Positions 12,675-15,600 of a stretch of DNA of 64,000 nucleotides are shown one piece after another; the stretch's first letter is position 1, and each line of letters opens with the position of its first letter. Made by a program: the position numbers and the translations under genes. The stretch is from NCBI GenBank assembly GCA_013398955.1, contig VWPU01004207.1:62001-126000 (forward strand), read 5' to 3'. Under the pieces are notes generated by a model. It did no database searches. It was not told the DNA's origin and saw only the letters and a list, made by a program, of their open reading frames with translations. The DNA comes from Callaeas wilsoni. Lineage: Eukaryota; Chordata; Aves; Passeriformes; Callaeidae.

Positions 12675-15600
12675 CTGGTGTGAGAAAATATGCATGTCAC
12701 ATTAATAACATGTTTTGTTTAAAGAATCATGCAGAACTCTGTATTCGCACAATCTTCCTTCCCACTTAAATTAAGCCAAACACAACCATAGATTTTATAT
12801 AGTGGAGAACAGAAGAGATGCATGTTTAAAATGGATATAAATCCAACTCAAGGAATAATGAGCTTATCGTAATTAGATTGTGACAGTCTGGTTTGCCAGG
12901 TTAATTGTCATGATTTTTAAGTGTTTCTTTTTGGTTGCAATCTGGACAGCAGCTCTTTTACTTCCTTCCACATCAGCCACTGTCACTTTAACATCAGTAT
13001 CATACTGATGACAACAGCCATTGGTATCTGCAGATATCAATTATGTCTGTCGTATTCATCTGGATAACTCTCTACTGTAACTTCAGGAATGTAAAGTCAA
13101 TACCTTGGGGAGATGTGCTAGCATTACAAAAAAGTTTCATTCCTTCTCCATTGATTCCCTTCACCTCTCCCGCTCAATATACTATGTATGTTAAAAGCTG
13201 CACATACAATACAATGAAATGTACGAAAAAATAATTACAAAAATTGTTTGCCCACAATGAACTTGCAAATTTCAAGTCAGACAATTAACCTGGCAGTAAA
13301 GGAAAATATACGAGTATTTCATGGGGATGGTCCATGCAATCCAAAAATGGCAATGTTTTACCAGCTGCCATTGTACCATTAGTAAAAGGCATGCTCAGAA
13401 CAGTTAAGGGACATGCTGTCTTTACAAACAACATGCTAAACAAGCTCATGACATTTACTTCTTTACTCTTCTCTAGGGAGCATGTTTTAAGCTTAACATA
13501 CTTATTTCACTAGTGTTCCAAATATTTCTTCCAGTCAAAAAACTCATTTTCCATAAGCAAACACCATCAATGGTAATAGTGCAGTGTGAAAATTTCTAAG
13601 CCCAACTAAGTGTTAAAGCATTAAGGTTATTTTTAACTTTATTTAAACAGCTGTTACGCACATTAACATTACAGAATGACGAGTCCTCCAAAAACACGCA
13701 TGTGTATGAACAAGCGCTGCAAATACTTTATGAGCAATTAATGCAAGTGATCTGCCAGCCTTTAAAACAACAACCAAGAGTTACAGTATGCTTCTATAGG
13801 TATTAATATGCTAGCAAAAGCTGTGGTAAGTCAGGAGCTGTTGCCTTCATAATAAGAACAATGGATACCCTGGGGATATAGAATGAAGCAGATCTCCTAT
13901 TTCCCCTGCCTGTTCTGTGCCTCACGCTGTCGGGACATGAGATACTGAGGACCGATTCGAGTGACTGCGAATGTTCCTGATGAATGGAAGGACATAGGGA
14001 GTAGCAAGAGGGATACAGTGCATCAGCTTCTAAAAGAAATTGGTGTAATGAAATCATTTCACTCTCATTTAAACTGCGCCGATGCTGAAAAGGAACAGGA
14101 TGACAGAAAGAATGAAAATGGACATGGTCAGGTATTACAGACACACACAAAAGTAATAATTTTAAACATCTCTAAAAGCTAAGAACCGTACTTAGGATAA
14201 CGAGGGAGTAGGAGGTATATTTAAACATTACTCTGAAAATTCAAGGACCAGAATTTACTGATGCCATGAAATGGCACAGCTCTGCTGATTTCAATACTTT
14301 TACCAAGGCATTCATAAAACAGAAATCTCTGCTCACTTACACCATCAATTCATTGTTTTTAAGATATTAACCTGTTCAATAGTGCACTGCCTCACTATTG
14401 TACAGCACGTCTGAGAAGTGAAAGAAAAAATGCCATCTTGAAAACAAACAGTTCCTGAAAAAAGCACTTCAATGAGCGACATATTTTTGCAGTCATTGAA
14501 CCATCAGGGCAGTATCAGTCAACACACAAACATGGTGAAAATATCAAAAACTTCCTTCTGCAAGAAAAATAGTCTTTCTCAAATGCACTGATATTTTCAG
14601 ATTATGAGATGGTTTTAACAACTGTGTATTTTGCACTTCGATTGAAAACTATTCTAGATTTCATTCCTAGTTATAGATTTAGCAGCTGAAAATTACAGAA
14701 AACTTACCAGTTTATAAATAAAAATACCTGGAGCTGAGAACTGATGATACAAAACCTTGACCACAACCATTTGCTGGCAAAAAGCCCCAGCAGTCCAATA
14801 CACAGTACTTGCAGTGAATTACCTGACTTGCCACAGCTGATACACCAAAATAAATTAGCAGAGTGCTATGTAAAAGCTAATTTTGCCTTAGTTATTGAAA
14901 CTCTCTCACTCATTTTGCAAGATTTGACAGCACTCATGTATATGAACAAGGATCATCTTGTCTCTCTCTCTGTTTCCCTATGCCCTCATCCTCCTAAATC
15001 AGCTTTGAACAGTTTTTTGAAATCTGAAATGGGCTATCTAGCTCTATTTACTTACACTTGGTAGAGACAGCCTGTTGCTCTCTTCCAAGAACTCTTCCAA
15101 AGTTACCATCTCACTCCCAGGTGAGGCAGACCGCTGCCTGCCTGCGTAAGACTGAGATGGATTGCTCTTCTCAGGTGTATCACAGGACATCAAACCATTT
15201 CTGTGCGAGGAGGACTCGTGTCTGTTGCTAGGGCTTAAGAAAGCAGCAGCAGCAGCAGAGTGCAGGGAATACGTGTCTCGGAACAAGATTTGTGCCTCTC
15301 TGCTTGGCACCGTATCTTCACTGCTGAGGCTCTCAGTTCTACCATGGATATGGTCTAAGGAACCTGAGGAGAAGCATAAATGCCATTAATGACAATGCTC
15401 TGACATGATTTCAGTAGATTTCACACTCAGGTAGGAACTTTATCATCCAGGGCCATTTCCACACAGACTAGGAGGCATTTTTTACCTTACTTTTTTTCTC
15501 CTACAGAGCTCAAAGCAATCAGAGCTTTGAAAAATCAGGACTAGTAAATACCTTACAGCACCTTAAACAAGCACAACTACTTCACCAAAGAATAAAAGTA

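Follow-up and report, generated by a model that had tools for sequence, protein, structure and literature searches.

The window analysed here, a stretch of 64,000 nucleotides (C2369:62001-126000), carries on its minus strand the 3′ part of CCDC88C, which encodes Daple. Coiled-coil exons are followed by the authentic GBA exon (15363-15056) and by the last coding exon (12674-11661), which closes with the PDZ-binding C terminus VWYEYGCV and a stop codon. This gene model is approximate, its exon edges having been chosen from splice scores and reading frames. The GBA exon contains the 16-residue GBA core (15115-15068) near its end, and a search with an 81-residue join of this end and the segment described below hit the Girdin peptide of PDB 6mhf (8.2e-05), with the aligned stretch falling in the GBA portion. 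The GBA exon ends at 15056, in phase 0, and its GTAAGT donor opens the intron at 15055. This intron of 2381 nt leads to the last exon, which starts at 12674, likewise in phase 0. Two other features of the gene deserve mention. Within the GBA exon, five successive alanines are encoded by a GCT repeat at window positions 15242-15256, possibly a length polymorphism. Further upstream, a block of Daple-like coding sequence (19945-19748) has a CpG observed/expected ratio of 0.74 and no donor was found near its end; the gene model is unsettled at this point.

Between the last two exons lies our candidate cassette exon, a segment of 159 nt at 14084-13926 on the minus strand, in which a TTTTCAG acceptor, 53 codons with zero stops and a GTGAGG donor follow one another in phase 0-0. 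Its coordinates, frame, splice sites and peptide are as the initial annotation had given them, and so is the spacing of 27 residues, Phe to Phe, between the two motifs upon inclusion. That annotation had also spoken of a textbook acceptor; the donor falls short of such a description. In a simple weight matrix, the acceptor scores 6.05, placing it in the top 1% of the 4968 AGs of the minus strand and above the acceptor of the last exon (6.1 versus 4.1); the acceptor region (14128-14085) comprises a CTGAC with its A at -44, a pyrimidine tract and the TTTTCAG itself, with no AG between the CTGAC and the splice site. The donor (13925-13920) scores 0.73 in such a matrix, which still ranks in the top 7.7% of 3846 GTs on the strand, and is the weakest of 14, at 0.7 versus 2.8-7.6 for the top listed donors of the 13 other internal exons. 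An alternative CCDC88C coding exon has to keep the frame, and the splice sites and phase found here do so, weak donor included. In the 21,660 nt that separate the coding blocks of Daple, five open segments in phase 0-0 appear at thresholds of 0 for the acceptor and 0.7 for the donor, two of them ending at this same GTGAGG; with an acceptor of at least 6, the candidate is the only one. Origin as a repeat or mobile element is unsupported: a DNA search that skips very common words returned a single match in the 1.003 Gb assembly, the segment itself. At E ≤ 1, Pfam assigned no family to the segment, the GBA exon or the last exon, and comparison of the segment with prokaryote and viral sequence collections gave no stray vertebrate match.

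Codon scores place the segment between introns and exons. With a codon model built from all exons, 97% of 654 stop-free intron windows score lower than the segment and all 38 exon pieces score higher, while with a C-terminal model it exceeds 91% of the 654 windows and 13% of exon pieces score as low, the exon pieces in both cases being ones that also trained the models. CpG content is high. The observed/expected ratio is 0.80 in the segment, versus 0.21 in the rest of the intron and 0.25 in 16 pooled coding blocks; among 18,275 overlapping intron windows (11.7-37.9 kb), none holds as many as the six CpGs within these 159 nt, and the probability of such a count at the intron rate is about 0.005. 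We nevertheless rejected CpG retention as proof of an exon, because the coding blocks of this very gene reach only 0.25 and a high CpG content is therefore no exon mark here. The enrichment has a layout of its own: of the 22 CpGs in the 2381-nt intron, 11 are packed into the 424 nt at 13658-14081 on the minus strand. Seven lie within the segment or at its end, the following 209 nt have none, and four come just before an AATAAA.

The peptide encoded by the segment had been claimed to line up with the GBA motif that ends the preceding exon, and it does: a 16-residue GBA-like core (14063-14016) aligns with the core of the Daple GBA exon without gaps, with 8/16 residues identical and a score of 41, and the same core reaches 37 with the GBA exon of Girdin. 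But how much of this likeness could chance produce? The alternative that survives best is chance: the segment would then be a pseudoexon within the intron, similar to the neighbouring motif in translation by accident. Shuffled versions of the 53 residues reach the match score in 10 of 1000 cases with the Daple GBA exon and in 21 of 1000 with that of Girdin, and gapped matches of 41 or more turned up, over six frames, in 5 of 40 random order-3 Markov windows. When 97 exon 28-mers were compared with both strands of 11.7-37.9 kb outside known exons, they produced three other matches, with scores of 44, 41 and 41, one of which sits at the edge of a coiled-coil coding block. The motif score by itself is thus weak, barely exceeding chance, and we rejected the likeness as stand-alone proof. 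The weak donor and the intermediate coding score likewise speak for a pseudoexon.

What counts against chance is the coincidence, in the intron next to the GBA exon, of the motif and splice sites that keep the phase. In 540 million bases simulated with an order-4 Markov model trained on the minus strand, ungapped matches of at least 41 occurred 204 times, equivalent to 9.0e-4 per 2381 nt. Among 21,167 simulated matches of at least 30, in-phase splice sites flanked 3.2% under lenient thresholds and 0.13% when sites as good as those observed were demanded. If motif and splice sites are taken to be independent, their joint expectation per 2381-nt intron is 2.9e-5 (lenient) to 1.1e-6 (as good as observed). 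A first simulation of 108 million bases had given 30 matches, zero of them with such flanking sites. Real sequence provides a second control. In 588,000 nt (the window together with L006-L028, both strands), 224 open exon-like segments in phase 0-0 have an acceptor of at least 0 and a donor of at least 0.7, with real exons included and the candidate listed twice on account of two acceptors. Only the true GBA exon of Girdin, at 79, outscores the candidate at 41; the next segment reaches 28. Nine of the 224 have an acceptor of at least 6, the candidate among them; as judged from their peptides, five of the remaining eight fall on genuine exon boundaries of CCDC88 genes, although one of these five is in another frame. 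Likeness and exon architecture taken together strongly exceed chance. The coincidence with in-phase splice sites and the gap from 41 to 28 make a chance origin the less favoured explanation, and we regard it as rather unlikely. The initial annotation had proposed a cassette exon in compatible phase that encodes a GBA-like core, and this much is supported by the sequence, the simulated control and the real-sequence control; its accompanying claim of an intact core goes too far, and the tandem duplication is a possibility.

We call the core GBA-like, and not a GBA motif, because it departs from the strict published core, hydrophobic-T-hydrophobic-X-[D/E]-F-hydrophobic (PMC8252600). The segment reads I-S-L-H-Q-F-L, with S for T and Q for D/E, so that describing the core as intact was too strong a wording, although L-x-x-F-L and the hydrophobic face are indeed preserved. 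These substitutions lend some weight to a second alternative, a real exon whose motif would not bind G-alpha-i and would act as a spacer or another linear motif that alters the surroundings of the authentic GBA motif. A Leu instead of the Glu that follows Phe-Leu in both Girdin and Daple points the same way, as does the second half of the exon, for which neither Pfam nor the structure-sequence search that gave PDB 6mhf found anything similar. Girdin itself, however, reads V-T-L-Q-Q-F-L and thus departs at the D/E position with the same Q, and a Girdin peptide with this stretch is present in the solved structure 6mhf. The segment also keeps the essential Phe together with its hydrophobic neighbours, and exchange of this Phe for Ala in Daple abolishes G-alpha-i binding (PMC4484057). 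On balance, a real exon with a non-binding motif seems improbable to us. A single-sequence AlphaFold2 model of the segment predicts a helix at residues 7-23, spanning the core, with a mean pLDDT of 65.9; in a control of the same length from the end of the GBA exon, the predicted helix covers residues 39-49. In the synthetic peptide KB-752, too, the position at which the segment has the Leu after Phe-Leu is hydrophobic.

An alternative last exon is likewise improbable. Splicing into 14084 would here be followed by 93 residues up to a stop at 13803 and by polyadenylation after the AATAAA at 13643-13638, so that Daple would gain the extra motif but lose its PDZ-binding end. In favour of this, the frame stays open beyond the weak donor (13925-13803), the intron has this single AATAAA, located 160 nt beyond the stop and directly preceded by the four further CpGs at 13716-13658, and some forms of Girdin have the PDZ-binding end while others lack it (PMC8042451). 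On the other side, AATAAA occurs at 0.76 per kb on the minus strand, so that one here is unremarkable and may be due to chance, and there are zero CpGs between 13926 and 13716.

Between the core of the candidate cassette exon and that of the GBA exon, first codon positions agree at 7/16, second positions at 13/16 and third positions at only 4/16, and five of the eight identical residues are encoded by different codons. This pattern excludes a recent duplication of the GBA exon and leaves either a protein sequence kept by selection or a chance likeness. It does not decide between the two, because a chance match picked at the protein level looks alike. Shared ancestry, if that is the origin, must have involved amino acids kept by selection. 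The tandem exon duplication put forward in the initial annotation is accordingly possible, with two observations on the other side, namely that no alignment extends beyond the 16-residue core and that the third positions are randomised; convergence or chance is a possible source of the likeness as well. Tentatively, then, the segment could be an old, protein-constrained duplicate of the GBA exon in Daple, whose inclusion would create a two-site G-alpha-i regulator with a second site lacking the serine positions that serve as kinase switch in Girdin, a fuller scenario that we hold to be possible but somewhat doubtful.

Our preferred reading, to which we assign a probability of roughly 0.5, is less specific: judged from its sequence, the segment is probably a real, optionally used exon of Daple in this lineage, carrying a GBA-like motif. 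From its architecture and likeness we infer splicing, translation, G-alpha-i binding and regulation along the following lines. The strong acceptor combined with a weak donor suggests an exon that would be left out as a rule and spliced in by some cells. Inclusion would add 53 residues in frame and yield a Daple with two putative G-alpha-i docking helices at the spacing given above, the second of which retains the hydrophobic-Ser-Leu-x-x-Phe-Leu face. Daple acts on G-alpha-i independently of a receptor through one short motif (PMC10943482; PMC4484057), and GBA motifs compete with G-beta-gamma and bind GDP-bound G-alpha-i in a groove flanked by switch II and alpha-3 (PMC10943482). In Girdin, phosphorylation of S1674 is activating and that of S1689 inhibitory (PMC8376251). 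With the equivalents of these residues placed by counting from F1685, the Ser-Pro site that corresponds to S1674 is missing from the segment, and an Ala replaces the Ser equal to S1689. If the second site binds, it may offer optional docking outside switches of the S1674/S1689 type, beside a site that carries both positions. Should this hold true, cells could use splicing to set the number of G-protein docking sites on Daple, and perhaps their control by kinases.

Finally, we would place the candidate among the known variants of this protein family. To our knowledge, no such exon is known in human Daple. The same genome holds the 3′ end of the paralogue Girdin (CCDC88A; G000:C4822:73198-76044, L003 and L006), where the GBA exon is followed by a long last exon ending in TLWYEYGCV. 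This last exon contains RRTSIHDFLSKDSRP, which looks GBA-like, though not significantly so; its SIHDFL stretch was rejected as a further motif, as 326 and 277 of 1000 shuffles scored as well. A hidden exon corresponding to that of Daple was also rejected for Girdin, as in C4822:56001-86000, minus strand, the phase 0 intron after its GBA exon has no ungapped match of at least 24 to the segment core, a result that speaks against the candidate. Excerpts of the literature on Daple, CCDC88C and Girdin, covering GBA motif, isoforms, splicing and chick or chicken, describe no such exon. CCDC88C mis-splicing in Huntington's disease (PMC13067610, PMC9649613) is a case of alternative splicing in the same gene, and the excerpts of both papers do not name the exon concerned. 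The Girdin 3′ end of this genome resembles the GIV-L form (PMC8042451), and GIV-L versus GIV, like human Daple-V2 to V4, illustrates how C-terminal CCDC88 modules differ by transcript (PMC8042451, PMC6702192). The candidate would extend this theme, but the known forms vary in the PDZ-binding end or the transcript start, and no second GBA motif is described for them in the excerpts of these papers. The closest known counterpart is the GBA motif of Daple and Girdin (GIV) itself: the segment shares with it the hydrophobic face, the central Phe-Leu and 8 of the 16 residues of the Daple core, with a helix over the core predicted at modest confidence, and differs in having S for T, Q for D/E and Leu for the Glu after Phe-Leu, in being free of counterparts of the two regulatory serines, and in that its binding to G-alpha-i is putative.
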